Of a stretch of 64,000 nt of DNA, positions 18,350 through 50,826 are shown in pieces. Source of the stretch: Chamaelirium japonicum (taxonomy: Eukaryota; Streptophyta; Magnoliopsida; Liliales; Melanthiaceae); NCBI GenBank assembly GCA_947650365.1, contig OX393551.1, positions 93,470,697-93,534,696 on the forward strand. The letters run 5' to 3'. A model generated the notes under the pieces. It searched no databases and was not told the origin of the DNA. It saw only the letters and a list, made by a program, of their open reading frames with translations. The number at the start of each line of letters is the position of its first letter. Position 1 is the first letter of the stretch. The translations under genes and the position numbers were made by a program.

Positions 18350-18383
<34 letters not shown>

Positions 18384-22619: not shown

Positions 22620-23843
22620 CCACCAGGTGAATTTAACCAATCGGTCAAAATTGACCGATCGATCAAACTTGACCGATCGGATAGATTCAACCGATCGGTT
22701 CGATTTCTACTGGATCGGGCAAAATACTTAAGTTTTTGCCCGATCACGCCAACCTCTACTGGTTGAATTTAACCGGTCGGTCAAACTTGATCGATCGGAT
22801 AGATTCAACCGATCGATTCGATTTCTACTCGATCGAGCAAAATACTTAGGTTTTTGCCCGATCACGCCGACCTTTACCGGTTGAATTTAACCGATCGGTC
22901 AAACTTGACCGATCGGATAGATTCAACCGATCGGTTTGATTTCTACTGGATCAGGCAAAATACTTGGGTTTTTGCCCGATCACGCCAACCTCCACCGGTT
23001 GAATTTAACCGATCGGTCAACTTGATCGATCAGATAGATTCAACCGATCGGTTTGATTTCTACTGGATTGGGCAAAATACTCAGGTTTTTGCCCGATCAC
23101 GTCAACCTCCACCGGTTGAATTTAACCAATCAGTCAAATTTAACCGAACGGTCTTATTTCTACTGGATCGGTCGAAAAACAAAGTTTTTTGACCGATCAT
23201 CTCGATCTCTACCGGTTGAATTTAACCGATCTGTCAATTTTGACCAATCGGTCAAATTTAACCGATCGGTCAAGTTTCTACTGGATCAGTCGAAAGACAA
23301 AGTTTTTTGACCGATCACCTCGATCTCCACCGGTTGAATTTAACCGATCGATCAACTTTGGCCGATCGATCAAATTCAACCGATCGATCAAGTTTCTACT
23401 AGATCGGTCGAAAAACAAAGTTTTTTGACCGATCACCTCGATCTCCACCGGTTGAATTTAACCGATCGGTCAAATTCAACTGATCGATCAAGTTTCTACT
23501 GGATCGGTCAAAAAACAAAGTTTTTTGACTGATCACCTCGATCTCCACTGGTTGAATTTAATCGATCGGTCAACTTTGACCGATCTATCAAATTCAACCG
23601 ATCGGTTAAGTTTCTACTGGATCGGTCAAAAAACAAAGTTTTTTGACCGATCACCTCGATCTCCACCAGTTGAATTTAACCGATCGGTCTACTTTGATCG
23701 ATCGGTCAAATTCAACCGATCGGTCAAGTTTCTACTGGACCGGTCGAAAAATAATATTTTTTGATCGATCAGCTCGACCTTCACCGGTTGAATTCAATCG
23801 ATCGGTTGAAATTTGACTGATCAGTCAAATTCAACCGATCGGT
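22620..23843. repeat. 118-bp tandem array with GATCGGTCAA palindromes (element B 3' region), copy 1
   Basis: About ten diverged units of about 118 bases, one shortened to about 100. Each unit carries several ACCGATCGGT cores, often extended to TTGACCGATCGGTCAA, plus a 33-bp hairpin (for example 22713-22745 and 23620-23652). Plant Tat elements are known to have hypervariable tandem repeats between the antisense gene and the 3' LTR, and this fits that position in element B. The array is cut at 23841-23843 by the tandem-duplication joint. Confidence 0.88.
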
Positions 23844-25902
23844 GCCTGGACTCCTATGTCTGTTCCAGAGGTTCCTCGATTCAAGGTGCACAAGGAGACT
23901 GATATATACTGCACAGGAGGAGCTCTCTCTTGGGCTCCAGAACGAGTAGGGGCCCTCGACAATCTCTTTTTGGAGTTAACGTGCGGGACCCGATCTTGGA
24001 GGCAATTCTCGAATTGCCCAGTCCGACACGGCAAGGCCAACCTCCTCCACCGATCGAAGCTTCGATATGAAGACAATGAGGTAATCTACTCTGATTATGA
24101 GGAGGACCCTCAGTCTGGAAAAATTGTTAGAAAGCTTCGATTCGAAAAGAAGGCTTATGCAGCCAGGCGCGCGCTTCCCTCAAAGGAGAGATTGGTGATT
24201 CCAAAGGGCCCGGCGAAGAAGAAGAGAAAAATCCTCATCAGACAGGAGGATGAGGAGAAAAAGAAGGATGAAGATGAAGAAGAGGAGGTAGAGAGGGAGG
24301 AGGGCGGAGATGAGGAGGATGAAGGCACAGGCAGCGATGGAGAAGATGGAGAGGAGGATGATGATGAAGATGATGATGATGATGATGGGGGTGGTGAGGA
24401 AGAGATTCCTCCCACCCCCACTGATGGTAGTCATGGACATGGGGGTGGTGAGGAAGAAATTCCTCCCACCCCCACTGATGGTGGTCATGGACATGGGGGT
24501 GGTGAGGAAGAAATTCCTCCCACCCCCACTGGTGGTGTTGACGAGGAATCGCAGCCTATCCTCATAGACGAGGGTAAGGCTCGAAGGATGGAGGGAGTTA
24601 TGGACGCCACGGGAGATGGCTCCAGGGTGATTCCCACCTACGACTTTGGGGCGTTGAAGAAGAACCCCCTGCGTTTCAAGATCAGGATATCGGGGAGTGG
24701 TGGGGTTGGAAGCAACCCCACACCCCTCGATCAGATACCTCCTGAGGTTCCCCTTCTCGAAGGGGCAACAACTACAAGTGGGGGTGTGGAGGTTGAACAA
24801 CCCCCACCACCCTCACGATCTCTGGCTGAAGAAGTAGCTGCCATGGTGGTAGGGCTCGACCATCCGAGCGGACGAGAAGACGAAGTGGGAGCCTCACCTC
24901 CTCGGGATGTTCCCTCTCCTGCTCACATGGAGAGAGGAAGCCGGGTGGGTGATGCTACCCCTCAACCCTTTCCAGAGCCAACCCCCACCAAGGAGAAGTC
25001 GACCCCCAAGGGTAAGAGCTCCGATCGTGGAAAGGGAAAGGCTCCTCAGGTCGAGGCTTCAGGTACCTGTACTGACTTACCTTGATTGACTTGCCGTTGA
25101 AGCTCGAAAATATTCTAACACTTTGATCTCTCGTTGATTGCAGGTGCGCCTGTTGGCTCGACCCCAAAGATGAAGAGTTTGGGTGACGTTGACATCAACC
25201 ACCCCACAGTCGTGATCCGAAAACTCTGCAATCTTCCAGGGGCTACTCTGGATGAAGCTTTCGACAGGCTCGAACTGGTGGTAAGTGCATCTTGCTCGAA
25301 GGATCATCTGAATTGCATTTTCAGAATAATTCTAACTCTTTGTCCATTTGCAGAACTCAGCTTGTTTGAGAATCGCAAGCAAGCTCTCCAGGAAGGCAGG
25401 AGAACGGGAATCCGCCTCCGAGGTGACCCGTTTGACAGCTGAACTGAAGGCTGTGAGCGAGGAAAGAGATGGGCTGAGGGAGCTTCTGAGTTCAAAGAAA
25501 CAATCTCTCAAGGCCAAGATCGAGGATCTCCGCAAGGGGAAGCTGGAGATCAAGGGGCTGCAGGATCGTTGCGAGGCGCAGACTCACGAGCTTGAATCCT
25601 TGAAGAATCGACTCTCCAAGGTTGAGGACGTGTCCTGCGGTCGCACTATCGAGATCAAGGAGCTAAAGGAACAACTTGCTACTCAGCACGCTGCCTTCAC
25701 TGCCAGAGAGGAGACTTCCAAGAAGGCACTGGAGCATGCGCTGTCTGAATGCAAGGTTTACAAGGAAATAGCTGAGAAGGCGGCAGAGGCACTCAGGGTA
25801 CACGTCAGCAGTGTCCGATCTTCGAAAACTTCGGTTGCGAGCAAGCCTCGTGGCGATTCTGAAGGAGAGAAGTCACGTGCTCCAAGCGTAGCCAAACCCT
25901 GA
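23844..25902 (+). pseudogene. 3' part of the antisense gene of element A, copy 2 (5' part missing)
   Basis: Corresponds to 1023-3081: the end of the conserved domain, the acidic tract, three 18-residue repeats, both introns with GT-AG ends, and the coiled-coil end. The promoter and first 260 or so codons are absent because the duplication joint lies here, so no normal product is expected. A few conservative differences from copy 1 are visible. Confidence 0.85.
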
Positions 25903-26094
25903 TGTATTTCTACCTTTTCTTTGTTGTTCACACTTGTAAACTCCTGACATGTAGCAGTTCATCATTGTTCTTGGCAAATTTTGATAATAATAGAAATCTT
26001 TTTGGGTATTTGAAAATTGGATGTCTCTTGAGTTGAATGCCTTTGAATCTTATGTTCTGGATAGCATTAGCATAGATACAATCTTTTGAATGTA

Positions 26095-26389
26095 AGGGAT
26101 CGAGTCGCAATTCAAGCACCCAAACTTATTGCAACTTGAAAATTGAAACTTGAATTCGTACAACACTTGAATGTGAGGGGTTGAGTCGCAACTCAAGCAC
26201 CCAAACCTGTTAAACGATGTAGAAATTGATTGAAATTGAATATTGAAATTTGAAAGTCAGTTTAACATTTGCCAGTAAGGGGTTGAGTCGCAACTCTAAC
26301 ACCCAAACTTGTTAAAAGACTTGGTAACTTGAATATGGTCAGTTTTTAACATTTGCTAGTAAGGGGTTGAGTCGCAACTCTAACTCCCC
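26095..26389. repeat. Four hairpin-bearing direct repeats, copy 2
   Basis: Duplicate of 3274-3568, lying in the 25903-26516 gap between the facing ends of the antisense gene and pol. No gene is present in this gap. Confidence 0.7.
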
Positions 26390-26516: not shown

Positions 26517-29500
26517 TCAAGGATAGAACAGCTTGAGGTGTCTAGAATTCCAAGCTCGTGGCAACCTATCTCCTTCTGGTGAGATTAGTCGATAGGAGCC
26601 TTTGCCTCCAACTGACTCGATGATGTATGGACCTTCCCAGTTGGGAGCAAGTTTCCCACTGCTGTGTTCTTTGGTGTTGTAGAAAACTGCTCTGAGAACT
26701 AAACTACCCACTGGGAACTGTCTTTTGTAGACTTTCTCGTCGTAGGCTCTTTTGATCTTCTGCTGGTACTTGGCCACACGAAGTGATGCTTGATCTCGTA
26801 ATTCTTCGGAGAAGTCTAGATCATTGATCCGAAGTTCTTCATTGATCCCTTCTTCAATGGCTTTGGTCTTCAAAGTGCTTGATATATTTTCTGTTGGGAG
26901 TACTGCTTCCGATCCGTATGTTAGACGAAAGGGTGAGAACCCTGTTGATCTTCTCGGAGTTGTGCGATACCCCCAAAGAACTTCAGGTAGGACTTGCTCC
27001 CACAATCCTTTCTTGTCGCTGAGTTTCTTCTTGAGTATACCAAGTATGACTCTATTTGAGGCTTCAGCTTGGCCATTGCATTGAGGATATCTTGGAGTTG
27101 AATAGAATAGCTTGATACCGTTGTTAAGGCAGAACTCTCGAAATTTGTCGGAATCAAATTGAGCTCCATTGTCAGCAACGAGAATTTGAGGTGTCCCAAA
27201 TCTTGAGAAGATATTGTGCCGAATGAATTTGATCACTTCATCGTCAGTCTCTCGGAAGAGGGGCACAGCTTCAACCCATTTGGTGAAGTAATCTGTGGCC
27301 AGCAATAGATACTTCTTCTTGCTCGGAGTTGGAGGGAAAGGACCTAAGAAATCTAACCCCCACTGATGGAATGGCCAGGGACTAGATAGTTGATGAAGTT
27401 CATCTGCAGGGAGATGGATAGCTCGAGCGTGTCTTTGGCATGGCTCACATCTTTGAACTATTTGTTGAGCATCCCTTGCCATTGTTGGCCAGTAGTACCC
27501 TTGTAGCTTCGTCTTGGCTTCAAGAGATCTTCCTCCCGAATGATTTCCACAAACTCCGGAATGGATATCAATCAGGATTGCCTGTGCTTGCTCGGGACCA
27601 AGGCACTTGAGCAACATCCCGTTGTGAGATTTGAAATATAGATCTTCTCCTTGTAGAATGTAGTAGGGAAGTTTCCTTTGAAGTCTTCGGGCTTGATTTG
27701 GATCTTCAGGCATTTTGCCATGTTTGAAGAAATCAAAGACTGATCGTCTCCAGTCTTCAGGCTCACTTGTAGTAGTGAGGTTCAATGCGAGTTGATCTCC
27801 ACCCCCAGGTCTCTTTGTAGTAGCAAGGATCTGTTGATCGGGGATGGTCTTGGGCATTTCTTGATAATCAATTTGTATTTGTCTTCCTCTGAGTGAGTCT
27901 CCAAGGACGGAGGCAGCATTAGCTAGAGCATCTGCTTCACGATTCTCTGCTCTTGGAATTTGAACGAACTCAGTTATAGTAAAACGTTGTTGAAGACGTC
28001 GTACTAAGGCCAAATAGAGTTGCATTCTTTCTTCACGAGCTGTGTATTCTCCATTGATTTGCCTTATGATCAATTGGGAGTCGCTGTAGACGATGATTCG
28101 ATCTACCCCCAGGGATTCTGCCATTTCGAGTCCGGAAATGAGTGCTTCGTATTCGGCTTCGTTGTTGGTGGCGGTGAATCCGAGGAGAGTGGCCTTCTGA
28201 AGATGATCAAGTTCAGGGGATACCAAGACTATCCCAGTTCCTGAACCGATCGCGCTTGAAGCTCCATCAGTGTATAGCTTCCATGGAGGAGTTGCAGCGA
28301 TAGCTTCGAGACTTGGATCAATTCTTGTTGCAAGGTTGATCGGAGTATTGTTCTCATCTTCTAAGCGCATGTCGACATCTTCTTCCCAAGTGATGGGGTC
28401 TTTAACTGGAAAATCAGCTAGAAAATCAGCAACAGCTTGACCTTTAATGGAAGTGCGAGATTCGAACTGAATCCCCAGAGCACTCATTTCGATCACCCAT
28501 TTGGTCATTCGACCAGCTCGACCAGCTTTGTCAATGATATCTTTGAGTGAGTGTTCTGAAATGACAGTGATCTGGTGGGAGACGAAGTATGGTTGGATAC
28601 GACGCGATGCAGTGAGTAAGGCCAGGATGACCTTCTCAGTTTTTGAATAGCGAGTTTCAGCCGGAAGAAGAGTGTGGCTGATATAGTAGACTGGATGCTC
28701 AAAGCCTTCTCTTCTACTGACTAAGACTGCACTGATTGCTTGATCAGTTACGGCAAGATAGAGCCATAAGTCTTCTTTTGGCAATGGAGCAGTCAGGATA
28801 GGAGCTTGCACCAGATATTTCTTGATGCTTTGAAATGCTTCTTCACAGATTGGACTCCAGCCAGATGTATCCGCCTTTCGTAGTTTGTCGAAGAGGGGTT
28901 TGCACTTGTCGGAAGATTTTGAGATGAATCGATTGAGTGCTGCTAACCTTCCAGTGAGGCGTTGAACTTCTTTTCGATTTGTAGGTGAAGGCATATCGAT
29001 GATGGCTCGAATTTGATCGGGATTGGCTTCAATACCCCTCCTGGTCACAAGATGACCCAGGAATTTGCCAGATTGAACTCCAAAAGCGCACTTGGCTGGG
29101 TTGAGCTTCATACGATATTTTCGAAGAACTTGAAAGGTTTCTGTCAGATCAGAAAGGTGCTTGCTCCGAATGGAACTCTTGGTGAGGAGATCATCGACGT
29201 AGACTTCGACGTTGCGACCGATCTGATCTTCGAACATTTTTGTGACTAACCTTTGATAGGTAGATCCAGCATTTTTGAGGCCAAATGGCATTACATTGTA
29301 GCAGTAGAGACCTCGGCTAGTCACGAAGCAAGTCTTCTCTTGATCGTCTGGATGAAGTGGAATTTGATTATATCCAGAATACCCATCCATGAAGGACAAT
29401 AGCTCGTGGCCAGCAGTGGCATCGACGAGTTTATCGATCCTTGGCATGGGAAATGGGTCTTTGGGGCAAGCCTTGTTGAGGTTGGTGAAGTCGATACAGA

Positions 29501-29774
29501 CTCGGACTTTCCCATTCTTCTTTAGAACAGCAACAATGTTAGAGATCCAAGTAGGATACTCTACTTCACGGATGAAACCTACTGCGAGTAGCTTGGTGAT
29601 TTCTTCTTGAACAGCAACTTGCAGCTCTGGTCGGATGGTGCGTGGCTTATGCTTGACAGGCTTCATTTCTTCTTTGATTGCAAGTCGATGGCAAGCGTCA
29701 TCTGGATTGATACCAGGCATGTCTTCGAAACACCAGGTGAAGACGTCGATATTGGACTGGAGGAAGGATACCAT
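26517..29774 (-). CDS. pol of Tat element A, copy 2 (fossil, reads open)
   Basis: A 1085-residue frame with reverse transcriptase (YVDD near residue 195), gypsy-type RNase H, a second archaeal-like RNase H (YTDGASSAIGSG near residue 503), a zinc domain, integrase core and a basic C-terminal tail ending near NSRHLKLFYP. The order RT-RH-RH-IN with no chromodomain is Tat. The first part of the true polyprotein probably begins upstream, toward gag-pro. The element around it is incomplete because it has no 3' LTR and only part of the antisense gene. Confidence 0.92.
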   Translation of the reverse strand: MVSFLQSNIDVFTWCFEDMPGINPDDACHRLAIKEEMKPVKHKPRTIRPELQVAVQEEITKLLAVGFIREVEYPTWISNIVAVLKKNGKVRVCIDFTNLNKACPKDPFPMPRIDKLVDATAGHELLSFMDGYSGYNQIPLHPDDQEKTCFVTSRGLYCYNVMPFGLKNAGSTYQRLVTKMFEDQIGRNVEVYVDDLLTKSSIRSKHLSDLTETFQVLRKYRMKLNPAKCAFGVQSGKFLGHLVTRRGIEANPDQIRAIIDMPSPTNRKEVQRLTGRLAALNRFISKSSDKCKPLFDKLRKADTSGWSPICEEAFQSIKKYLVQAPILTAPLPKEDLWLYLAVTDQAISAVLVSRREGFEHPVYYISHTLLPAETRYSKTEKVILALLTASRRIQPYFVSHQITVISEHSLKDIIDKAGRAGRMTKWVIEMSALGIQFESRTSIKGQAVADFLADFPVKDPITWEEDVDMRLEDENNTPINLATRIDPSLEAIAATPPWKLYTDGASSAIGSGTGIVLVSPELDHLQKATLLGFTATNNEAEYEALISGLEMAESLGVDRIIVYSDSQLIIRQINGEYTAREERMQLYLALVRRLQQRFTITEFVQIPRAENREADALANAASVLGDSLRGRQIQIDYQEMPKTIPDQQILATTKRPGGGDQLALNLTTTSEPEDWRRSVFDFFKHGKMPEDPNQARRLQRKLPYYILQGEDLYFKSHNGMLLKCLGPEQAQAILIDIHSGVCGNHSGGRSLEAKTKLQGYYWPTMARDAQQIVQRCEPCQRHARAIHLPADELHQLSSPWPFHQWGLDFLGPFPPTPSKKKYLLLATDYFTKWVEAVPLFRETDDEVIKFIRHNIFSRFGTPQILVADNGAQFDSDKFREFCLNNGIKLFYSTPRYPQCNGQAEASNRVILGILKKKLSDKKGLWEQVLPEVLWGYRTTPRRSTGFSPFRLTYGSEAVLPTENISSTLKTKAIEEGINEELRINDLDFSEELRDQASLRVAKYQQKIKRAYDEKVYKRQFPVGSLVLRAVFYNTKEHSSGKLAPNWEGPYIIESVGGKGSYRLISPEGDRLPRAWNSRHLKLFYP

Positions 29775-29927: not shown

Positions 29928-32396
29928 CTATTTGGAAGAGGGACCAGCTTCATCTCGTGGCCGCTTTGGAGGAGCAATGTTGATCTTTCGATCTGTTTTC
30001 GCCGCAGCAGCCTCACAAGACCTTCCAGCTTGTTGATCACCTCGAATGCAGACGATGCCTTCTCCTGTTGCAAACTTGAGAAGTTGGTGATAAGAAGAGG
30101 AGATGGCATTGATCTGGTGGAGGAATGGTCGCCCAAGAATGGCGTTGTAGCTAGACATTCCTTCGACGATTGCAAACCTCACCGAGACTCGAGTCTCTCG
30201 GCTGAGGTCGATGGTAAATCTGGACTCGCCCACCGTGATGCTTTGTTCACCGTTGAAACCAGTGATCACCGTTGGAACGACGTCAAGGCTTTGATACTTA
30301 TGTCCCAGACGCTTGAAGCAATCCGAGAACATAATGTCGATGGAGCTTCCGGTGTCGATGAGGATCCGGTTGACAGTGCTGCCGTCGATAATGAGTTTCA
30401 AGACCAGGGGGTCTCGATGTGGAGTATGGACTCCTTGAAGATCGGTGTTGTTGAAGACGATTGATGGCCAAGCAAGACCTTCGATGGGTTTCTCGATCCA
30501 GGTATCTTCTTTGCTCGCAGTAGAACGAGCGTGGAAGATGCGTCGAACTTGGCGATCCACCTCTTTCCCAGTCAGACTTTGGTTGTGCAATGTTCCATGA
30601 ATACCAAAAACATTGGCATTCACAGAGGTAGTTTGCCGGTTTGAGGAGATTTGATGTATCCAACACACTTCTTTCCCCTTTGCAGAGGTCCGATGTTGAT
30701 CGTGTCCGCCTTTGACGAACTCTTGAAGATGGCCTTCTCGCAATAGGTCTTCAAGATGGAATTTTAGCCGAAAACACCGATCGGTGGAATGGCCGTGACT
30801 TCGATGGAAGTCGCAGTAGACTGTTTTGTCTGCTGTGAATTTGGAATTCGGCTGAAGAGGATTAGGCCTCCGAACGAACTCTTCATGTTGAATGCGGTCG
30901 AGTATCTGTTCGACCGGCATATTCCACGCGGTGAAAGTGGTCTTCGTTGGAGATCGACGTCCATCATTCTTTGATCTTTTGTTGGCCGGAGGGGCTGTTG
31001 CTTCAGTGTTGTGAGCCTTTGCAGCATACTTAGGAGCTTCTCTTTCAGCAGGCCTTCTTTTAGTTTCTCGCCCTTTCCGAGCGACTTGATCGTCTTCCAC
31101 CTCAATCTCTCTCTGAATTCGGTCAAACATTGCACCCAGAGAAGGAGGGGGATTGCGGATAAAGTCGTTATAGATGTGTAGATCGAAGCGGAGAGCGTTC
31201 TGGAAAGCCAACATGATGGCTTCATCATCCAGATGTCTTCCAGAGAGAGCAGCATGCTCATTGCGAAACCTCTTCGTGAAGCTGCGGAGAGTCTCGTCTG
31301 CACCCATCCTCAGTCGGTAGAGAGAGTCGAGTTTCTTCTCTGGCTTTAGATTGAGTTGATAGTGCTGCACAAAGAGGTTAGCCAAAACACCGAACTGGGT
31401 GATAGACCCAGCTCGGAGATTGTGATACCAGTCGAGTGAAGGCTCATCAAGACTTCCCGCGAAGGTGCGGCAGAGCACGTTGTTTTCCTCTTCGTGTGGT
31501 GTTAGAGCTTGCTTGAAAGCAAGTATATGGAGGCTTGGATCTCCTCTAATACAGTTGAATTTGGGGAGGATAGGAGTTCTCCATCCTCTTGGAAAGGTGG
31601 TCTCGAAGAGACTTCGATGTAGAGGCCCGGCAGAGGAGTAACCGTCCCTACGACCGTGTCCTCGACCTAGAGGTGGGTCAAGAGGCAAGATCGCAAGGTC
31701 TTGCTCGGGCATTGAAGTATTTGCCGGTTGGAGTCGATGTCGAAGGTCCGATCCAAGTCCACGTTGAAGTGGAATGGACGGGGAAACTCGGCTTTTCGAA
31801 GGACCGCCTTTCATTTGGTGCCTCCTTGGTGCATTGAGATTTGATGGAGCCTTCTTGTCGCAGTTGCGTCCGGAAGACGATTGGGAAGACTCGTCATCAA
31901 GGCGATCCCAAACACTTTGCTTCCAAGGAGCAGCAGAGGGAGTTGGGTCGCGTCGAATCCTCTCGAGGGCAGCAGTGCCCATTGATCTCCGTTGCTCGGA
32001 GTGGATTGAGCGTTGTGGAAGATTGATCCTCTCGCTTGCAGAGGGGATAGGAAGAGCGATTCCAGCCTCAGAGGCTGCCTTCTTCAGAGCATCCCTCTCA
32101 GCAGTGAGGGTGGCATTCTGCTTTGCCAATTGGAGCAGCTGGAAGTCGACTGCCGAAATTTGGTAGGTTGATGGAGGGTCTTCAGCTGGAGCTGGTGTTG
32201 TTTGTCCAATCGACTGTCGCGCGGGGTGGGCGATAGGTCGATCGACAGATCTGCCGCTCCCTGAACGAACCCCCATCTCGGGGACAGCAAGGGGCTGTCC
32301 GAAGTTGAGCCTTTGACTCATTGAACGAGTCTCAGGACGAGGTTGTTGTTGAGTGTTACTTCCTTCTGGTTGACCCTGATGCTTTGTTCTCGCCAT
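29928..32396 (-). CDS. gag-pro of Tat element A, copy 2 (fossil, reads open)
   Basis: An 822-residue frame starting MARTKHQG, with a gag domain (about 285-420), zinc-knuckle-like CDFHRSHGHSTDRC (about 550) and a protease DTGSS motif (about 705). It spans the site where CACTA is inserted in copy 1 (CCAG/CTTGTTG, near 30028) without interruption and with no excision footprint. It lies just upstream of pol on the same strand. How the family bridges gag-pro and pol is not decided by this sequence. Confidence 0.9.
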   Translation of the reverse strand: MARTKHQGQPEGSNTQQQPRPETRSMSQRLNFGQPLAVPEMGVRSGSGRSVDRPIAHPARQSIGQTTPAPAEDPPSTYQISAVDFQLLQLAKQNATLTAERDALKKAASEAGIALPIPSASERINLPQRSIHSEQRRSMGTAALERIRRDPTPSAAPWKQSVWDRLDDESSQSSSGRNCDKKAPSNLNAPRRHQMKGGPSKSRVSPSIPLQRGLGSDLRHRLQPANTSMPEQDLAILPLDPPLGRGHGRRDGYSSAGPLHRSLFETTFPRGWRTPILPKFNCIRGDPSLHILAFKQALTPHEEENNVLCRTFAGSLDEPSLDWYHNLRAGSITQFGVLANLFVQHYQLNLKPEKKLDSLYRLRMGADETLRSFTKRFRNEHAALSGRHLDDEAIMLAFQNALRFDLHIYNDFIRNPPPSLGAMFDRIQREIEVEDDQVARKGRETKRRPAEREAPKYAAKAHNTEATAPPANKRSKNDGRRSPTKTTFTAWNMPVEQILDRIQHEEFVRRPNPLQPNSKFTADKTVYCDFHRSHGHSTDRCFRLKFHLEDLLREGHLQEFVKGGHDQHRTSAKGKEVCWIHQISSNRQTTSVNANVFGIHGTLHNQSLTGKEVDRQVRRIFHARSTASKEDTWIEKPIEGLAWPSIVFNNTDLQGVHTPHRDPLVLKLIIDGSTVNRILIDTGSSIDIMFSDCFKRLGHKYQSLDVVPTVITGFNGEQSITVGESRFTIDLSRETRVSVRFAIVEGMSSYNAILGRPFLHQINAISSSYHQLLKFATGEGIVCIRGDQQAGRSCEAAAAKTDRKINIAPPKRPRDEAGPSSK

Positions 32397-32557: not shown

Positions 32558-32560
32558 AAC

Positions 32561-33388
32561 TGTGGGGGAAAATCTTCGTGCCGACCCGAAGACTCTCGCA
32601 GCACCAGTCAATTGAAGTTGAAGCTGACGTCGAAGATCGTTGGTCGATCTGTTGATTGCAGTTGAAGCTTTTGATATGTCAATAGAAAGAGATATCCGAG
32701 AGAGTTTGACACAAGAGATGTGATCTCGGAGTTCAGCCGAGGCCTACGTCTCCGTGCTATAGGGAGCAACCCGAATTCACTAACACTTCACTTGAAGTGA
32801 CCTCGACAGGCCGAGTGTCACTGAAATCTTTTTGACCTCTTCAAGGGTAAGAAGAAGAAGATCAAAGAGTTAGAAACTTCTGGGTTCTGGTTTCTGAAAA
32901 TAGATATGAAATGATGATGGCACTGATCTTCTATCAGAGCTCTGGTTTTGATTCTGGAATTTCGGGTTTTGGATCTGAGTTTCGATCCTTTTACATTCGA
33001 AGGCTCTGCTATTTATAGGATTCCAGAAGTGGAATTCTGGGGTAAATGGCGGTTTCAGCTGTCGTATCTGGGGATTCTCCAGGTAAGGCTGGTGGATCCC
33101 GTGGTAGTCCCCGTGGGCCCACCAGGCAGGGCCGGTGGGTCCCGTGGTAGTCCCCGTGGGCCCACCAGGCAGGGCCGATGGGTCCCGTGGTAGTCTCCGT
33201 GGGCCCACCAGGCAGGGCCGGTGGGTCCCGTGGTAGTCCCCGTGGGCCCACCAGGTGGGTCCTGTGGCAATCCTCGTGGGCCCACCAGGCAGGGCCGGTG
33301 GGTCCCGTGGTAGTCCCTGTGGGCCCACCAGGCAGGGCCGGTGGGTCCCGTGGTAATACGTAAACTTCTGCCAAAATTTGCACCCACA
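32561..33388 (-). repeat. 5' LTR of Tat element A, copy 2
   Basis: 828 bases with TG/CA ends, a TATAAATAG box and the 43-bp GC-rich array, duplicate of 21245-22072. The two differ at about four positions, so with commonly used plant LTR rates the duplication is of the order of 0.2 million years old; this is a rough by-eye figure. Confidence 0.92.
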
Positions 33389-33468
33389 GGCGACACCGGT
33401 GCCTTCTTCTTCCCAGCCCTCTTGGACAGGACTACGTTCTTGATCTTGATGCTGCTGGAAGATGCCAT
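33389..33468 (-). pseudogene. Start of the antisense gene of element B, copy 2
   Basis: Same truncated MASSSSIKIKNVVLSKR start as at 22073-22152, again abutting the LTR of element A. Confidence 0.72.
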
Positions 33469-33935: not shown

Positions 33936-35215
33936 CCAGGTGAATTTAACCAATCGGTCAAAATTGACCGATCGATCAAACTTGACCGATCGGATAGATT
34001 CAACCGATCGGTTCGATTTCTACTGGATCGGGCAAAATACTTAAGTTTTTGCCCGATCACGCCAACCTCTACTGGTTGAATTTAACCGGTCGGTCAAACT
34101 TGATCAATCGGATAGATTCAACCGATCGATTCGATTTCTACTCGATCGAGCAAAATACTTAGGTTTTTGCCCGATCACGCCGACCTTTACCGGTTGAATT
34201 TAACCGATCGGTCAAACTTGACCGATCGGATAGATTCAACCGATCGGTTTGATTTCTACTGGATCAGGCAAAATACTTGGGTTTTTGCCCGATCACGCCA
34301 ACCTCCACCGGTTGAATTTAACCGATCGGTCAACTTGATCGATCAGATAGATTCAACCGATCGGTTTGATTTCTACTGGATTGGGCAAAATACTTAGGTT
34401 TTTGCCCGATCACGTCAACCTCCACCGGTTGAATTTAACCAATCAGTCAAATTCAACCGAACGGTCTTATTTCTACTGGATCGGTCGAAAAACAAAGTTT
34501 TTTGACCGATCATCTCGATCTCTACCGGTTGAATTTAACCGATCAGTCAATTTTGACCAATCGGTCAAATTTAACCGATCGGTCAAGTTTCTACTGGATC
34601 AGTCGAAAGACAAAGTTTTTTGACCGATCACCTCGATCTCCACCGGTTGAATTTAACCGATCGATCAACTTTGGCCGATCGATCAAATTCAACCGATCGG
34701 TCAAGTTTCTACTAGATCGGTCGAAAAACAAAGTTTTTTGACCGATCACCTCGATCTCCACCGGTTGAATTTAACCGATCGGTCAAATTCAACTGATCGA
34801 TCAAGTTTCTACTGGATCGGTCAAAAAACAAAGTTTTTTGACTGATCACCTCGATCTCCACTGGTTGAATTTAATCGATCGGTCAACTTTGACCGATCTA
34901 TCAAATTCAACCGATCGGTTAAGTTTCTACTGGATCGGTCAAAAAACAAAGTTTTTTGACCGATCACCTCGATCTCCACCAGTTGAATTTAACCGATCGG
35001 TCTACTTTGATCGATCGGTCAAATTCAACCGATCGGTCAAGTTTCTACTGGACCGGTCGAAAAATAATGTTTTTTGATCGATCACCTCGACCTTCACCGG
35101 TTGAATTCAATCGATCGGTTGAAATTTGACTGATCAGTCAAATTCAACCGATCGGTTGAATTTAACCGATCGGTCGAATTTGACCGATCGGTCGAAATTG
35201 ACCGATCAGTCCATC
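33936..35215. repeat. 118-bp tandem array (element B 3' region), copy 2, full right end
   Basis: Same array as 22620-23843, but here it continues past the joint position and ends naturally near 35215 in a run of ACCGATCGGTCGAA-type units. Frames reading RLNLTDRSNLTDR-like repeats are translations of the array. The unit structure and hairpins match copy 1 with few changes. Confidence 0.88.
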
Positions 35216-35323: not shown

Positions 35324-36195
35324 TGTGGGTGCAAATTTGGGCAAGAAACCTACAGACCACGGGGCCCGCCAGCCCTGCCTGGTGAGCCCACAGAGACTAC
35401 TACGGGACCCACCAGCCCTGTCTGGTGGGTCCACAGAGACTACCACGGGACCCACCAGCCCTGCCTGGTGGGCCCATAGAGACTACCACGGGACCCACAA
35501 GCCTTGCCTGGTGGGTCCATAGAGACTACCGCGAGACCCACCAGCCCTGCCTGGTGGGCCCACAGAGACTATCACGGGACCCACCAGCCCTGCCTGGTGA
35601 GCCCACAAAGATAATGACGGGACCCACCAGCCCTACCTGTGGAATCCCCAAAGACGACAACGGGACCCACCAGCCCTGCCTATGGAATCCCCAGAGACGA
35701 CAGCGGGACCCGCCAGCCCTGCCTGGAGGATCCCCCGGATTTGACAGTAAAAACCGCCATTTGCCCCAGATTTCCTCCTAGGAAATCTTATAAATAGCAA
35801 ATCCTTCAAATGTAAAAAGATCGATTCCTGAAACTAGAAACCAGAGCTCTAGGATTCCAGCTTTCAATCCTTCAACTCTCCTCGATCTTCTCCTTGTCTC
35901 TGAAGAATTCGAAGAGATCAGTGACACTCGGCCTGTCGAGGTCACTTTGAGCAAAGTGTTAGTGAATTCGGGTTGCTCCCTATAGCACGGAGACGTAGGC
36001 TTCGGTTGAACTCCGAGATCACATCTTGTGTCAACATTCTCTCTGTTTGCATATCATAAGAGGAAACTCAAAGTCACCAAGATATCAACCTTCAACCCTA
36101 CCTTCCAATCAACAGATCGACCAACGATCTTCGACTCAACTTCAATTGACTGGTGAGGTGAAGTCTTCGGATCGACATGAAGATTTTCCCCCATA
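35324..36195 (+). repeat. 3' LTR of Tat element B
   Basis: About 872 bases from TGTGGGTGC to CCCCCATA (terminal CA changed). It contains about eight units of the GC-rich GGGACCCACCAGCCCTGCC-type array (35370-35740) and a TATAAATAG box at 35789-35797. It is clearly diverged from the LTR of element A, so B is an older or separate subfamily. It ends inside a unit of the short dispersed repeat, at ATTCCTTTCAACTTCACACC, which is its insertion site. Confidence 0.85.
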
Positions 36196-39100: not shown

Positions 39101-40030
39101 CTATCTCTTCTCTTTCCATTTCTTCCCTCTTCTCTTATGGATTTGCGTCTTCCAAAGATTACTTAGGCCCTAAGTAAGCTTACCTTATAAATAATATATA
39201 ACCCCTTTAGGGTGGGGCACGTTTGACGGTGCTTTCTTTTTCCTATCTCGTAATACATTATCAGCACGAACATATCGAGCCCAGTCGACCAGTCACAAAA
39301 AACGGAGAGAGAAACGAAGACAGAAGAGAGAGAAGAAAAGAGAAGAGAACGGAGAGATAAACAAAGAAAGAAGAGAGAAGAAGTCCTGCTCCAGTCCATT
39401 CGTCATGGGTATAGGTTTGAAGTAAGAAGGAATCTAAATTCTAAAACTCTACTTCTCAATAATATTATCTCAATGTTATTATGATTATCATAGTAAATTC
39501 CAAAACTCTCTTCCTTTTAATTAAACAATTAATTTAACTAAAAAAATTATAGTTACATTATCAGCCCGAAAAGAGAAGAAGTCCTGCTCAAGTCCATTAG
39601 CCACGGGTATAGGTGTGAAGTAAGAAGAATCTAAATTTCAAAACTCCACTTCTCAATATTTATACGACCCCATTAGGATGGGGCACGTTTGACGGCTCTC
39701 TCTTTCTTCCATATCACAACACATTATCAGTGCAAACATGTCGAGCCCAGCCTACCAGTCACAAGAAAATAGAGAGAGAAACAAAGACAGAAAAAAAAGA
39801 AGAAGAGGGAAAATAAAACAGAGAGAGAAACAAAGACAGAAGAGAGAGAAGAGAATAAAGAGATAAATGAAAAGAGTAGAGAAAAGAAGTCTTGTTCCAA
39901 TCCATTGGCCACGGGTATAGGTGTGAAGTAAGAAGGAATCTAAATTCCAAAACTTAACTTCTTAATATTTATATGACACCTTCAGGGTGGGGCATATTTG
40001 ACGACTCTCTCTTTCTCCTATCTCACAACA

Positions 40031-40414
40031 CGTTATCAGCACGAACATATCAAGCCCAGCCGACCAATCACAAGAAAACGAAGAGAGAAATGAAGACAGA
40101 AGAAAGAGAAGAAGAGAGAAGAGAATAGAGTGATAAAAAAAGGAGAAGAGAGAAGAAGTCTTGCTCTAGTCTATTGGCCACTGGTATAGGTGTGAAGTAT
40201 GAAGGAATCTAAATTCCGAAACTCCACTTTTTAATAATATAATTAATTCTATCCATTCTCTTATCTCTTCTCCCATGGATTAGGGTTTCCCATAGATTGC
40301 TTAGGCCCTAAGTAAGCTTACCCTATAAATAATAAATAATATACGATCCCTTTAGGATGGGGCACGTTTGACGGCTCTTCCTTTCTCCCATCTCACAATA
40401 TGTTATAAGCACGA
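40031..40414 (+). repeat. Head-to-tail pair of short repeats showing a 370-bp period
   Basis: Primer-like markers at 40031 and 40401 lie 370 bases apart on the same strand with one full unit between them. This gives the best direct estimate of unit length in the long form. The intervening unit has a telobox near 40278 and TATAAATAA near 40323. Confidence 0.75.
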
Positions 40415-42599: not shown

Positions 42600-43375
42600 A
42601 GTTGTAATATTTTAAATTTTTATAAAGAAAAATATAAATTATTTTTAAAGCAAAAAAATTCAGGTATGCCTCATCTTCCTTCTTTACTTTCTATTATTTA
42701 ATTAATTTAATTATTTTAATAAATTAAATTTTTAAATAATTAAATAAATATTTAATTATCTATGTAATTAAATAACTCAATAAATTTAATAATTTATTTA
42801 TTATTTAATTATTAAAATAAAGAAATATTTAATTTATTATTTAAAATAATATTAAATTATTTTAAAAAATATTTTATTATCTATATATTCAAATAATTAC
42901 ATAATAATTTATTTTAATTATTATTTAGTTAATTATAAAATTATTTAATAGTTAAATTATTTATTTGATTGATTAAATAATCTATATAATATATTTCTGT
43001 ACTAAATAAGTTTTTAAATATTTAAATAATTGACTAATTATTTAATTATTTTATAATAAAATAATATTTTAAGAAATTTCTAATAAAATAAATTAATAAA
43101 GTAATTATATAATTAAATAATTATTTTTTTATTCAATAATTTAAATAATTTAATAGTTACCTAAATTAATTATTTGATAATATAATAATAATAAATGAAT
43201 AAAATAAAGAATTTATTTAAAGAAATAGATAATTAATTAATTAAATTAATTAATTATTTTACTAAAATCTTAATTATTATATTATTTAAATTATTAAATT
43301 ATTTAATAATTTAATAAATGATTAATTTAATTAAAAAAATTATAGTAACATTACTTTGATAATTATAATAACGTT
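42600..43375. repeat. AT-rich module 1 of the short-repeat family
   Basis: About 775 bases of almost pure A/T made of TAATTTAAT-type words. Its left flank (GATCCGATGGTGGATATCCATCCGATCGAACGATC region, 42550-42600) and right flank (GATACTATTGAGAAGTGGAG, 43380) recur, inverted, around 52600-53560. No gene. Confidence 0.8.
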
Positions 43376-46300
43376 GAAATGATACTATTGAGAAGTGGAG
43401 TTTTGAAATTTAGATTTCTTTTTACTTCACACCTATACCCGTGGCCAATGGACTAGAGCATGACTTCTTCTCTCGTCATTTATCTCTCCGTTCTCTTCTC
43501 TCTTCTTCTCTTTCTTCTGTGGAGTTTTAGAATTTAGATTCTTTCTTACTTCACACTTATACCTGTGGCCAATAGATTGGAGTCAGACTTCTTCTCTCTT
43601 CTCTCTTCGTTTATCTATTCATTCTCTTCTCTCTTCTTTTCTGTTCTGTCATCGTTTTTTTCTCCGTTTTCTTATGACTGGTCGGCTGGGCTCCATATAT
43701 TCATACTGATAATATATTGTGAGATGGGAGAATGAGAGAGCTGTCAAACGTGCCCCACCCTAAAGGGGTCATATATTATTTATAGGGTAATCAATCTATA
43801 GGAAACCCTATTCTATGGGAGAAGAGAGAAGAGAACTGAGAGATTTAATTATATTATTGAGAAGTAGAGTTTTAGAATTTAAATTCCTTCTTAATTCACA
43901 CCTAAACCCCTAGCGAATGGACTAGAAGAGGACTTCTCTCTTCTCTCTTTGTTTATCTCCCCATTCTCTTCTCTCTTCTACTCTCCCTTCTGTCTTCGTT
44001 TCTCTCTCCATTTTCTTATGACTGGTCGGCTGGGCTTGACATATTCATGCTAATAACGTGTTATGAGATGGGAGAATACTTATTAATTTTATTTATTTCA
44101 ATTAATATTTTTTAAATATTATAAAGTATATTATTTCTTTAAATATTTAAATAGTATCATCTGAACTTTATTATTTAAATATTTAATTATATAATATTGC
44201 AAAATTATTAAATAATTTATATAAATTTATGAGCATGAAAAATATTTTATTTCTCTTCTTCTCTCTTTATTTATTTCTTCTTTCTCTTCTCTCTTCTTCT
44301 TTCTCTTCTGTGTTTGTTTCTCGCTCTATTTTCTTTTGACTGGTCGGCTGTGCTCGACATGTTCGTGCTATAACATGTTGAGAGAAGAGAGAAGAGAGAA
44401 GAAGAAAGAAAAGAAATGAGAGATAAACGAAGAGACAAGAAGTCCTGCTCTAGTCCATTAGCCACGGGTATAGGTATAAAGTAAAAAATAATCTAAATTT
44501 TAAAACTCCACTTCTCAATAATATAATTAAATCTCTCCATTCTCTTCTCTCTTCTACTATGGATTAGGGTTTCCCATAGATTGCTTAGGCCTAAAGTAAG
44601 TTTACCCTTTAAATAATATATGACCCTTTTAGGGTAGGGAATATTTGACGGCTCTCTATTTCTCCCATTTCATAATAGTTATCAGCACAAACATATAGTG
44701 CCCAGCCGACAAGTCATAAGAAACGGAGAGAGAAACAAAGACAGAACAGAGAGAAGCAGAGAGAAGAGAATAAAGAGAGAAATTAAGAGAGAAAAAAGAA
44801 GAAGCCCTGCTCCAGTCCATTGGCCACGGGTATCCATTGGCCACGGGTATAGGTGTGACATAAGAAGGAATCTAAATTCCAAAAGTTTACTTCTTAATAA
44901 TATAATTAAATTTCTCCATTTTCTTCTCTCTTCTCCCATAGATTAGGGTTTGACATAGATCGATTAGGCACTAACTAAGCTACCCTATAAATAATATACG
45001 ACCCCTTTAGGGTGGGGCACATTTGATGGTTCTCTCTTTCTCCCATCTCATAACACATTATCAGCACGAATATGTTGAGCCCAGCCAACCAGTCGCAAGA
45101 AAATGAGAAGAGAAACGAAGACAGAAGAGACAGAAGAAGAGAGAAGAGAACATAGAGATAAATGAAGAGAGAAGAGATAAGATATCCTACTCTATTCCAT
45201 TGACCATGGGTATAGGTGTGAAGTAAGAAGGAATCTATATTTCAAAACTCCACTTCTATCTTCGTTTTTCTCTCTATTTTCTTACGACTGGTCGGCTGGG
45301 CTTGACAAGTTCGTGCAGATAACGTATTATGAAATGGGAGAAAGAGAGAGTCGTCAAACATACCCCACCCTAAAGTGGTCTTATATTATTTATAGGGTAA
45401 GCTTACTTGGGGCCTAAGCAATCTACAGGAAACTATAATCTATGCAAGAAGAGAGAAGAGAATAAAGAGATTAATTATATTATTGAGAAGTGGAGTTTTA
45501 GAATTTAGATTCCTTCTTACTTCACATCTATACCCGTGGCCAATGGACTGCATCCGGACTTCTTCTCTCTTTTCTCTTCGTTTATCTCTCTGTCCTCTTC
45601 TCTCTTCTTCTTTCTCTTCTGTCATCGTTTCTATCTCCGTTTTCTTGTCTCGCTTGGGCACGACATGTTCGTGTTGATAACGTATTGTGAGATGGGAGAA
45701 AGAGAGGGCCATCACACGTGCTGCACCCTAAAGAGGTCATATAAATATTAAGAAGTAGAGTTTTTGAATTTAGTTTCCTTCTTACTTTACACCTATATCA
45801 ATGGCGAATAGACTGGAGTAAGACTTCTACTATCTTCTCTCTTCGTTTATCTCTTTATTCTCTTCTCCCTTTTGTCTTCGTTTCTCTCTTAGTTAAATAA
45901 TTATATTATTTAATTAAATTATTTAGGTAGAAGAGAGAACAGAACGGAGAGATAAACAAAGAGAGAAGGGGAGAAGAAGTCTTGCTCCAGTCCATTGCCC
46001 ACGGGTATAGGTGTGGAGTAAGAAGGAATCTAAATTCCAAAACTCTACAGACGAGAGAGAATAAGAGAGAAGAGAAGAGAGAAGAGAGAGAAGAATAGAG
46101 AAGAGAACGTAAAGATAAACAAAAAGAGAAGATAGAAGAAGTCCTACTCCAATCCATTGGCCATGGGTATAAGTGTGAAGTAATACGGAATCTAAATTCC
46201 AAAAATACACAAAAGAGAAAGAAGATAAGAACAGACTTCTATTTAATTATTATAACTAGAGATATTTATATTATTTTATTTAGGTTCTCTTCTCTCTTCT

Positions 46301-48609
46301 TATAACACATTATCAATATGAACAAGTCGAGCCCAACCAATTAGTCACAAGAAAATAGAGAGAGAAATAAAGACAGAAGAGAGAGAAAAAGAGAGAAAAG
46401 AACGGAGAGATAAACAAAGAGATAAGAGATTAGAAGTCCTGCTCCAATCCATTCGCCACGGGTATAGGTGTGAAGTAAAAAGGAATCTAAATTCCAAAAC
46501 TCCACTTCTCAATATTTATATGACCCCTTTAGGGTGCGACACGTGTGCCGGCTCTATATTTCTACCATCTCACAACACGTTATCAACACGAACATGTCAT
46601 GCCCAGCCGACAGTCATAAGGAAACGGAAAGAGAAACAAAGACAGAAGAGAGAAGAGGACAAAGAGATAAACGAAGAGACAATAAAGAAGAAGTCCTGCT
46701 CAAGTCCATTGGCCACGGGTATAGGTGTAAAGTAAGAAGAAATCTAAATTCAAAAACTCCATAGAAGAAAGAGAAGAAGAGAGAAAAGAACGAAGAGATA
46801 AATAAAGAGAGAAGAGAGAAGAAGTCTTACTCCAATCTTTTGGCCATGGGTATAGGTGTGAAGTAAGGAGGAATCTAAATTCCAAAACTTCACTTCTGGC
46901 CTAGTTTCTCTCTCTGTTTTCTTATGACTAGTCAGCTGGGCTCGACATATTCATGCTGATAACGTGTTATGAGATAAGAGAAAGAGAGAGCGTCAAACAT
47001 GCCCCACCCTAAAGGGGTCATAAATTATTTATTATTTATAGGGTAAGCATACTTAGGGCCTAAGCAATCTATGGGAAACCCTAATCCATGGGAAAAGAGA
47101 GAAAAAAATGGCGAGTGTAAATTATATTATTGAGAAGTGGAGTTTTGGAATTTAGATTACTTCTTACTTCACACCTAGACCCGTGGTTAATGGATTAGAG
47201 TAGGACTTCTTCTCTCGTTTGTCTTCGTTTATCTCTCCGTTCTCTTCTTTCTTGTTCTTTCTCCTCTGCCTTTATTTCTCTCTCTGTTTTCTTATGACTG
47301 ATCGGCTGGGCTCGACATGTTCATGCTGATAACGTATTGTAAGGTAGGAGAAAAAGAGAGACGTCAAATGTGCTCTACCCTAAAGGGGTCGTATAAATAT
47401 TGAGAAGTTGAGTATTAGAATTTAGATTCCTTCTTACTTCATACCTATATCCGTAGCCAATGGCTTGGAGCAGGACTTCTTCTCTCTTCGTTTATCTCTT
47501 CATTCTCTTCTCACTTTTTCTCTCTTTTGTCTTTGTTTCTCTCTCCGTTTTCTCTTCTCTCTTTTTCTCTCTCTTCTGTCTTCGTTTCTCTTTCCGTTTT
47601 CTTATGACTGGTAGGCTGTGCTCGACATGTTCGTGCTGATAACATGTTGTGAGGTAGAATAAAGAATGATCCATCAAATGTGCCCCACCCTAAAGGTGTC
47701 ATATAAATATTAAGAAATAGAGTTTTGTAATTTAGATTCCTTCTTACTTACACCTATACCCGTGGCTAATGGACTGGAGCAGGACTTTTTCTCTTTTCAT
47801 ACTGATAATGTTACTATAAATTTTTTAATTAAATTAATTATTTAATTAAAATAAAGAGAGTTTTGGAATTTATAATGATAATCATAATAACATTGCAATG
47901 ATACTATTGAGAAGTGGAGTTTCGGAATTTAGATTCCTTCTTACTTCACACATATTCCCATGGCGAATGGACTAGAGCATGACTTCTTACCTTTTCTCTC
48001 TTTATTTATCTCTCTGTTTTCCTTTTTTTTCTTCTCTCATTTGTCTTCGTTTCTCTCTCCGTTTTCTTGCAACTGGTCGGCTGGGCTCGATATGTTCGTG
48101 CTGATAACGTATTGTGAGTTAGGAGAAAGAGAGAGCCGTCAAACACCAATACCCTTGGCGAGTGGACTGGAGTAAGACTTCTCTCTTCTCTTTTCATTTA
48201 TCTCTCTGTTCTCTTCTCTCTTCTCACAACACATTATCAGTACGAACATATCAAGCCCAACTGACCAGTCACAAGAAAACGGTACAAGAAACAAAGACAA
48301 AAGAGAGAGAAGAAGAGAACAGAGAGATAAATAAAGAGAGAAGAAGAGAAATAAAAATTTTTTATGCTCATAAATTTATATAAATTATTTAATAATTATG
48401 TAATTTTTTATAAATAAATATTTAAATAATAACTTTGAGATGATACTATTTAGATATTTAATGAAACGATATTCTTTATAATATTTAAAAAAAAATTAAT
48501 TAAAATAAATAAAATAAATAAGTAATCTTCCATCTCACAACACGTTATCAGCATGAACATGTCGAGCCCAGCAGACCAGTCACCAAAAAACAAAGAGAGA
48601 AATGAAGAC

Positions 48610-49368
48610 TGTGGGGGAAAATCTTCGTGCCGACCCGAAGACCTCGCCTCAACAGTCAATCGAAGTTGAAGTTGAAGAGCGTTGTTTGATCTGTTGATTG
48701 AAGTCGCAGTTTTCAATAAGCAAGTAGATAAGAGAGATGCAATCAGAGATTTGACACGAGAGATGTGATCTCGGAGTTCAGCCGAAGCCTACGTCTCCGT
48801 GCTATAGGGAGCAACCCAAATTCACCAACACTTATATCAAAGTGATCTCGACAGGCCGAGTATCACTTAAAACACTCTAATCTCTTCGAAGGAAAGAAGA
48901 AGATCAAAGAGAGGTGGAAGATGGGAAGCTGAGAAATTCCAGAGCTCTGGATTCTGAAAACCAGATCTCAGAGTGGAAATCAGAAATTTCGGATCCCTTT
49001 ACATTCGAAGGCTTTGCTATTTATAGGATTCTCTGGCGGTAAATGGCGGTTTCTGCTGCAGCATCTGGGGATCCTCCAAGTAAAGCTGGTGGACCCTGCT
49101 ACCGTCTTCTTGGGGATTCCACAGGCTATTGGGCCCACCAGGCAGTGTCGGTGGGTCCCGCTGTAGTCTTCGCGGGCCCACCAGGCAGGGCCGGTGGGTC
49201 CCGCTGTAGTCTTCGTGGGCCCACCAGGCAGGGCCGGTGGGTCCCGCTGTAGTCTTCATGGGCCCACCAGGCAGGGCCGGTGGGTCCCGCTGTAGTCTTC
49301 GTGGGCCCACCAGGCAGGGCCGGTGGGTCCCGCTGTTTGTAGACTTCTTGCCAAAATTTGCACCCACA
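48610..49368 (-). repeat. 3' LTR of Tat element C
   Basis: 759 bases bounded by TG and CA with the same termini as A and B, about five to six units of the GC-rich 43-bp type array (49085-49340), and a TATA-like TATAAATAG box near 49014-49025 (minus). It is shorter than the LTRs of A (828) and B (872), mainly through array copy number. Confidence 0.88.
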
Positions 49369-49477
49369 GTTAACCCCTCCAAGTTAGCTAAGAGTCCGCC
49401 TTGGCTGGCTTGGATTTTTGGTGCAAAGTTATTGATCCCCTGTCAAAAAGGAGCTCTGTTGAAATGTTTAGCGAAAA

Positions 49478-50826
49478 AATAGACTGATCGGTCAATTTTG
49501 ACTGATCGGTCAAACTTGACTGATCGGTCAAATTTTGACTGATCGGTCAATTTTGACTGATCGGTCAAACTTGACTGATCGGTCAAATTTGACTGATCGG
49601 TCAATTTTGACTGATTGGTCAAACTTGATTGATCGGTCAATTTTGACTGATCGGTCAATTTTGACCGATCGGTCAAACTTAACCGATCGATCAATTTTGA
49701 CCGATCGGTCAATTTTGACCGTTCATTCGAATTCAACCGGTCAAGGTTGGAGTGATCGGTCAAAAAACATAGTTTTTTGGCCGATCTAGTAGAAAATCGA
49801 TCGATCGGTTGATTTTGACCGATCGGTCAAGTTTGACTGATCGGTTAAAAACAGCCAGTCAAGGTTAGGTTGATCGACAAAAAACACAAGTTTTTTGCCA
49901 GATCCAGTAGAAATTCGACCGATCGGTTGATTTTGACCGATCGGTCAAGTTTGACCGATCGGTAAAAATCAGCCGGTCAAGGTTTGGGTGATTGGCAAAA
50001 AACACAAGTTTTTTGCTAAATCTAGTAGAAAATCGACCGATCGGTTGATTTTGACCGATCGGTTAAAATCAGCCGGTCAAGGTTTGGGTGATCGGCAAAA
50101 AACATAAGTTTTTTTTGCCAGATCCAGTAGAAAATCGACCGATCGGTTGATTTTGACCGATCGGTCAAGTTTGACCAATCGGTTAAAATCAGCCGGTCAA
50201 GGTTTGGGTGATCGGCAAAAAACACAAGTTTTTTGCCAGATCCATTAGAAAATCGACCGATCGGTTGATTTTGACCGATCGATCAAGTTTGACCGATCGG
50301 TTAAAATCAGCCGGTCAAGGTTTGGGTGATCGGCAAAAAACACAAGTTTTTTGCCAGATCCAGTAGAAAATCGACCGATCGGTTGATTTTGACCGATCGA
50401 TCAAGTTTGACCGATCGGTTAAAATCAGCCGGTCAAGGTTTGGGTGATCGGCAAAAAACACAAGTTTTTTGCCAGATCCAGTAGAAAATCGATCGATCGG
50501 TTGATTTTGACCGATCGGTCAAGTTTGACCGATCGGTTAAAATCAGCCGGTCAAGGTTTGGGTGATCGGCAAAAAACACAAGTTTTTTGCCAGATCCAGT
50601 AGAAAATCGACCGATCGGTTGATTTTGACCGATCGGTCAAGTTTGACCGATCGGCTAAAATCAGCCGGTCAAGGTTTGGATGATCAGCAAAAAGCACAAG
50701 TTTTTTGCCTGATCCAGTAGAAAATCGACCAATCGGTTGATTTTGACCTATCGGTCAAGTTTAACCGATCGGCTAAAATCAGCCGGTCAAGGTTCGGGTG
50801 ATCAGCAAAAAAACACAAGTTTTTTG
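49478..50826. repeat. 118-bp tandem array of element C
   Basis: The left part (49478-49735) is a simple series of CTGATCGGTCAA units. From about 49780 the units are 117-119 bases (one 103), eight or so in number. Each has TTGACCGATCGGTCAA (for example 49933-49948), a CAGCCGGTCAAGGTTTGGGT block and a 33-bp hairpin (for example 50210-50242). The sequence has diverged from the array of B but keeps the period. Confidence 0.88.

Follow-up and report, generated by a model that had tools for sequence, protein, structure and literature searches.

Retand retrotransposons that carry tandem arrays and antisense open reading frames (ORFs) with a Transposase_28 domain are already known, with DNA binding predicted for this domain (PMC11963269). 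In the parts of this 2025 survey on which we draw, the region from pol to the 3′ long terminal repeat (LTR) spans 2.9–6.6 kb, the LTRs 315–1,194 bp and the internal region 7.4–12.9 kb, and the function of both the antisense Transposase_28 gene and the Retand tandem arrays is stated as unknown. For gene23 of the maize element Grande, the passages covered describe transcription from a promoter in the upstream region of the gene itself (PMC7264820). Here we analyse a window of 64,000 nucleotides (that is, the whole stretch of DNA under study: contig OX393551.1 of assembly GCA_947650365.1, forward-strand positions 93,470,697 to 93,534,696) from the 1.52-Gb genome of Chamaelirium japonicum, the gypsy and CACTA elements of which are plant-like in look. 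The window contains nested, Retand-like Ty3/gypsy retrotransposons that house tandem arrays of a 118-bp unit, in which an inverted repeat of 33 bp adjoins one of about 50 bp. We suggest, with a probability of roughly 0.4, that the DNA of such an array may control the antisense Transposase_28 gene from its upstream side, through paired protein binding.

The label Retand-like is given on the basis of architecture, sizes and the reverse transcriptase (RT), RNase H and integrase domains rather than an RT tree. The younger element, the coding strand of which is the minus strand, is inserted within an older element of opposite orientation and has the marks of an LTR retrotransposon: a 5-bp target-site duplication (TSD; GGCGA), LTRs that are 99.3% alike, and primer-binding-site-like and purine tracts beside the LTRs. 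Between pol and the 3′ LTR lies an antisense Transposase_28 ORF (the ORF in the window scores below the cut-off of the domain), and the sizes fall within the Retand ranges (pol to 3′ LTR approximately 5.4 kb, LTR 828 bp and internal region approximately 11.5 kb, once the lengths of a CACTA element and a duplication are subtracted).

Array, antisense gene and the two-palindrome unit

The array separates the antisense Transposase_28 gene from the 3′ LTR and lies upstream of that gene, at a distance of a few hundred bases. Wherever the start of the antisense ORF was found by eye, it adjoins the array and is directed away from it (27 of 27 cases: 25 loci together with the younger and older elements described above; many of these loci are copies of one segment, L029–L032 were excised upstream of the antisense ORF, and L039 and L040 stand outside the count), and six of six further loci chosen by their Transposase_28 domain have the same orientation. 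In the rest of the genome, the domain gave 137 matches among 150 scored candidates (5,978 first-look candidates; the rows listed are above the cut-off), and the array is present at all ten loci chosen from these matches, four of them ranking among the top ten and six distributed over the list, all with an open frame of 626 codons or longer. At these ten loci the distance from the first hairpin to the ATG is mostly about 520 bases (hand count), and a TATATAAG box stands 108–128 bases 5′ of the ATG at 9 of 12 loci, with one variant in addition; for the antisense ORF of the younger element, whose array lies to the left of the window, the box is 109 bases 5′ of the ATG. The arrays are also rich in TTGACY half-sites, the W-box of WRKY proteins: five arrays have 19–54 per kb, compared with about 1 in shuffles and 0.55 in array-free parts of the window (12.8 kb). 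Antisense proteins of the elements across which the array unit persists are 56–87% identical over their first 60 residues.

The original prediction had described a 33-bp hairpin, fixed in length and present once per 118-bp unit in three array types, as a preserved structure with stem bases that change together in a region thought to be hypervariable. All three 33-bp stretches and their arm sequences are present at 22713–22745, 23620–23652 and 50210–50242. Their predicted folding energies are −17.9, −19.6 and, for the third on the minus strand, −16.5 kcal/mol; when each hairpin was dinucleotide-shuffled 200 times, none of the shuffles folded as well as the original. A loose hairpin test, which requires 11 or 12 of the 12 arm bases to pair within a 33-bp stretch, is passed eight times in the array at 22654–23843 and eight times in that at 33967–35211, whereas 20 shuffled versions of the first array never pass it; the six further passes in the window all fall in AT-rich stretches. 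Genome-wide, the self-complementary hairpin pattern GATCNNNC..GNNNGATC has 12,218 exact places and its reversed control none. The three array types reduce to two lineages, given that the hairpins at 22713 and 23620 are unit subtypes of one array, and the hairpin at 50210, which belongs to a different element remnant on the opposite strand, has an extra bulged base and thus a shifted register that makes it no simple paired substitution; a strict in-register test on its array (49482–50832) gave one match. Constancy of length holds for 427 of 462 units but fails in the remaining units of the fetched loci (by arm comparison, 322 of the 462 are in register, 134 have an extra left-arm base and 6 fit neither well), and the spacing is 118 in 281 cases but 117, 119 or 120 in 41, 100 in 43, 136 in 16 and 154 in 13. 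The hairpin shape is preserved in ten of ten loci picked by Transposase_28 and a long open frame, although the arms mostly change one-sidedly, and the description of the region as hypervariable agrees with the published one, although the unit here is about as conserved as its surroundings.

The second inverted repeat had been missed. When both strands of three units were folded, a stem-loop of about 50 bases followed the 33-bp one in three of the six folds, with GGTTGAATTT ... AAATTCAACC enclosing palindromic 18-mers; the remaining folds differ, two of them coming from a frame that cuts the second repeat. Five of the six folds are 8.2–9.9 standard deviations more stable than shuffles and the sixth 5.5, and among 96 aligned units the paired cells amount to 93.5% and 91.2% in the helices of the second repeat and 84.5% in the 33-bp hairpin. 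Both inverted repeats appear to derive from an 18-bp DNA palindrome with the core TTGACCGATCGGTCAA, and the 33-bp hairpin may be viewed as another form of this palindromic junction in which the A/T centre is longer. Unit length shifts by 18-bp steps, and as the 18-mers (core ACCGATCGGT) are palindromic, symmetry is kept whatever their number. By eye, 10 of 15 loci have GGTC/GACC-type units at the end of the array closest to the LTR and different ones closest to the ORF. An array of another type, with 136-bp spacing, the hairpin GATCGGTCAAAAAGCAACACTTTTCGCCCGATC and recurrent mismatches, is found at C8:67458424-67458864.

Linkage between the arms

Genome-wide pair counts, which contain many copies of the same arrays, give T-A 5,043 times, G-C 1,829 times, C-G 4 times and mixed T/C or G/A 148 times at stem pair 7/27; pair 10/24 is G-C in 897 cases and mixed G/T or A/C in 494, and pair 14/20 is G-C in 33 and mixed in 1,442, which is the reverse of covariation. 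The exchanges between T-A and G-C at 7/27, and between A-T and T-A in the second inverted repeat, are double transversions that keep the pairing; that between A-T and G-C at 10/24 is a double transition. Relatedness among units was modelled with a tree null in which events are distributed over the branches of a FastTree tree (approximately 85–125 columns) according to their length (a rough procedure, other than R-scape). A first tree, of 330 distinct units among 383 (five unexpected-strand matches, from L027, L028 and L032, were retained), has 213 single breaks, 37 restorations and 6 pair-keeping double changes, compared with 0–2 in slid controls. On a tree of 245 distinct in-register units (155 of 462 units excluded, 119 for shifted register and 36 for other length; 300 simulations), pair 7/27 reached p = 0.003, which is the simulation floor, pair 10/24 was weak (p = 0.076 for covariation and 0.010 for double events), and covariation summed over the 33-bp stem had p = 0.007, with about three quarters of the sum coming from pair 7/27; compensated doubles numbered 6 versus 3.1 expected (p = 0.10) and all doubles 8 versus 7.9 (p = 0.57).

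A further alignment, A1, covers both repeats (96 of 323 full-length units, less than 93% alike, taken in fixed locus order; 37 pairs, 500 simulations). Breaks and repairs on its tree stand at 105 and 17 in the first repeat and at 174 and 10 in the second, and compensated doubles at 5 versus 1.9 expected (p = 0.04) and 6 versus 2.8 (p = 0.06), respectively. Three of the 37 pairs have p < 0.01 (13-36, which is 7/27, 65-105 and 75-93, all of them transversion swaps) and two more have p = 0.04–0.05 (60-109 and 79-89); none is left after correction, which no pair could have passed given that the floor of 0.002 exceeds the corrected limit, and the summed covariation scores lack significance (p = 0.13 and 0.11). 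Simple shuffles, which ignore relatedness, are stronger (73 doubly changed cells versus 32.7, a value reached in 0 of 500 shuffles). The two arms are somewhat linked, with a handful of events as support, and the paired changes are genuine but few. What survives of the proposed joint change of stem bases is a small number of pairs that exceed the tree null before correction; for most pairs one-sided changes dominate, and the independence of the arms that had been named as the contrary outcome is largely what the trees return. More generally, ‘paired changes’ in tandem palindromes can stem from a few founder types and leave a weak covariation signal once relatedness is modelled. One unit family, at L037:94-1406, has a second inverted repeat with several compensated changes (GGAC/GTCC for GGTC/GACC).

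What the array might do

Assuming that the array is a control region of the antisense gene, its dyad half-sites (the W-box-like TTGACC) would be bound as pairs by a dimeric protein, either one of the host or the product of the antisense gene, and symmetry would be kept loosely at the DNA level, with array homogenisation helping and the RNA fold playing no part. Several observations weigh against this proposal. Recent changes on the 96-unit tree mostly break the symmetry without repair (279 one-sided breaks and 27 repairs in total, together with 11 compensated doubles versus approximately 4.7 expected), and hairpins of the GGGC/GCCC type have lost the TTGACC core from their arms. L011 stops short of the expected antisense ORF and L015 ends about 14 codons into it, no ORF start was found beside the third array of the window (49482–50832), as expected of a truncated copy, and a TATA box near the expected place is absent at 2 of 12 loci (L030 and L037). 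Nor is the array clearly better conserved than the promoter spacer: across 22 elements (231 pairs), the best unit is 83% and 89% identical versus 77% and 86% for the spacer in the two lower identity bins, both stand at 92.5% in the highest bin, and mean unit identity (80, 85 and 88% over the three bins) is below that of the spacer in the highest. Homogenisation alone could explain the regularity of the array and, as the array adjoins the antisense gene and the 3′ LTR alike, its position does not separate a role in genomic RNA or in LTR control from one in antisense transcription.

Nearly level with the control-region proposal, and quite conceivable, is an account in which the hairpins have no function: an 18-bp palindrome would have founded the array, so that symmetry is due to descent, a few founder unit types would have been amplified, and the double changes would arise when reverse transcription or replication switches template and one arm is repaired from the other. 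The palindromic 18-bp subrepeats, the 18-bp steps in unit length, the predominance of one-sided changes and the summed covariation scores of the 96-unit tree are all consistent with this, as is an amplified subfamily with mismatches at 5/29 and 14/20 (L039 and many of the first 100 places listed). The excess over the tree null at pairs 7/27, 65/105 and 75/93 (p < 0.01 before correction) and the summed stem score on the 245-unit tree, most of it due to pair 7/27, argue the other way; so do the survival of the unit among elements with such diverged antisense proteins and pair 14/20, which templated repair might also be expected to fix and which is mostly uncorrected. We consider it unlikely that the two stem-loops instead give the genomic RNA a structured element in its 3′ part, with a function such as packaging, stability or strand transfer. 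The position of the array, with pol on one side and the 3′ LTR on the other, places it inside the expected genomic RNA, its folds are far more stable than shuffles and compensated changes exist; however, DNA palindromes by construction fold on either strand, and amplified units carry sense-strand A-C mismatches (L039). Breaks of the G-U and A-C kinds are about equal (90 and 71, p = 0.16, on the 330-unit tree; 34/28 and 59/66 on tips and 8/6 and 13/8 on internal branches, p = 0.38–0.79) and thus give no pointer to RNA structure or to an RNA strand. Of the signs of a conserved structured RNA, neither pairs that covary after correction (subject to the simulation floor given above) nor a preference for G-U over A-C was seen, Rfam gave no match at gathering scores, and a tRNA search found none. 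The RNAalifold consensus reached only −6.2 kcal/mol and called no pairs in the 33-bp hairpin, for which it is of little use because two registers are mixed in that alignment.

That the arrays are subterminal repeats of CACTA-type DNA transposons is very improbable. Inverted array pairs 22–25 kb apart on several contigs and the CACTA element within the window could suggest it, but the arrays are tied to the gypsy antisense ORF, purine tract and LTR. We rejected this reading because the CACTA element (7208–18709) ends in its own terminal inverted repeats (TIRs) and TSD and contains no such array; nor do the arrays lie beside CACTA TIRs. The inverted pairs themselves (G000 contigs C4, C12, C14, C33, C36, C43 and C80; spacing approximately 22–25 kb) are apparently copies of one large segment. 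Returning to the control-region proposal, a more elaborate and rather doubtful form of it would treat the palindromes of Retand-like elements as paired operators in a modular array. Binding of the antisense Transposase_28 protein, or of a host factor, to these operators would balance antisense against genomic transcription; the two unit types (ORF-side and LTR-side zones) might serve two sites and the dyad arms might co-evolve with the specificity of the protein.

Features of the window and relation to known systems

The coordinates of the features are collected in the table below. An 11.3-kb tandem duplication, which spans 1016–35156 (99.4–99.5%), gave rise to the 99.5% identical arrays at 22.7 and 34.0 kb; its junction near 23840 shares only about three bases (GGT, by eye) with both parents. 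The remainder of the antisense ORF of the older element was found in L009, from 7423 downward. A comparison of the antisense protein with solved structures gave three weak matches (E 0.014–0.36; antibody heavy chains and a ribosomal protein), which were taken as chance. Tandem GC-rich repeats of 43 bp occur in the LTRs at 21763–22039, 33079–33355, 35356–35726 and 49130–49336, and their GTGGGCCCAC-like motifs resemble TCP-factor sites. The AT-rich stretches at 36200–48600 and 51000–64000 hold scattered direct and inverted copies (approximately 75–85% alike) of a repeat of about 130 bp, as well as TTCTC/GAGAA tracts.

Table 1 Coordinates of elements, arrays and hairpins (window positions; negative values lie to the left of the window)
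Feature	Position	Strand	Remarks
Younger element, 5′ LTR	32561..33388	-	99.3% identity to own 3′ LTR
Younger element, 3′ LTR	-2579 to -1751		Left of window; 99.3% versus 5′ LTR
Younger element, TSD GGCGA	33389..33393		Same 5 bases at -2584 to -2580
Younger element, gag and protease ORF	29928..32396	-	
Younger element, pol ORF	26517..29774	-	RT, RNase H, integrase
Younger element, antisense accessory ORF	240..2264	+	Transposase_28 domain, 23.4 bits, E 7e-5, below 26.2 cut-off
Older element, antisense ORF start	33394..33468	-	Split by younger insertion; first residues from 33468 downward
Older element, 118-bp array	33967..35211	+	Element coding strand +
Older element, 3′ LTR	35324..36193	+	Purine tract before; contains 43-bp GC-rich array
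Duplicate 118-bp array	22654..23843	+	Contains the first two predicted hairpins; 99.5% copy of 33967-35156
33-bp hairpin, GGGC/GCCC type	22713..22745	+	
33-bp hairpin, GGTC/GACC type	23620..23652	+	15-bp perfect arms
Second inverted repeat (IR2)	23667..23718	+	Same unit as 23620 hairpin; hand-converted from alignment columns 57-112
Array of third, truncated element	49482..50832	-	Includes hairpin 50210-50242
33-bp hairpin, bulged GGC/GCC type	50210..50242	-	
LTR remnant of third element	48608..49369	-	
LTR copy within tandem duplication	21245..22072	-	
CACTA DNA transposon	7208..18709	-	In one gag-pol copy; TIR CACTACACCAAAACAGGG, TSD CAG, DUF4218; tnp2 transposase 14274-16670

Among the literature matches listed, palindromes or hairpins inside Retand arrays are undescribed as judged by titles and the starts of abstracts, and the exact motif GACCGATCGGTC occurs in three papers, with titles on bacteria and phages. 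Maize Grande resembles the elements described here in that an accessory gene runs antisense and has its promoter in the region upstream of it, and differs in that a palindromic array is undescribed in the passages covered (PMC7264820). The tandem repeats in the 3′ untranslated regions of Ogre/Tat elements, which seed satellites, are likewise arrays downstream of gag-pol that have been termed hypervariable (PMC7004042); the words palindrom and hairpin are absent from the main text of that paper. The closest likeness is to the published Retand elements (PMC11963269), which share the long region between pol and the 3′ LTR, the antisense Transposase_28 ORF and tandem arrays often beside the 3′ LTR; the words hairpin and inverted repeat are absent from the main text of that survey. 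The present unit differs in its length (118 bp versus the published 8–100 bp) and in that a unit of two inverted repeats is common to diverged elements, whereas the repeats of the survey are family-specific and highly variable. A palindromic array upstream of an antisense TATA box, with hairpins that number in the thousands within a single genome, provides a concrete and testable candidate control region. The 118-bp two-palindrome unit common to diverged elements appears to be a new variant of these systems, and a supposedly hypervariable region can contain a unit that diverged elements have in common.

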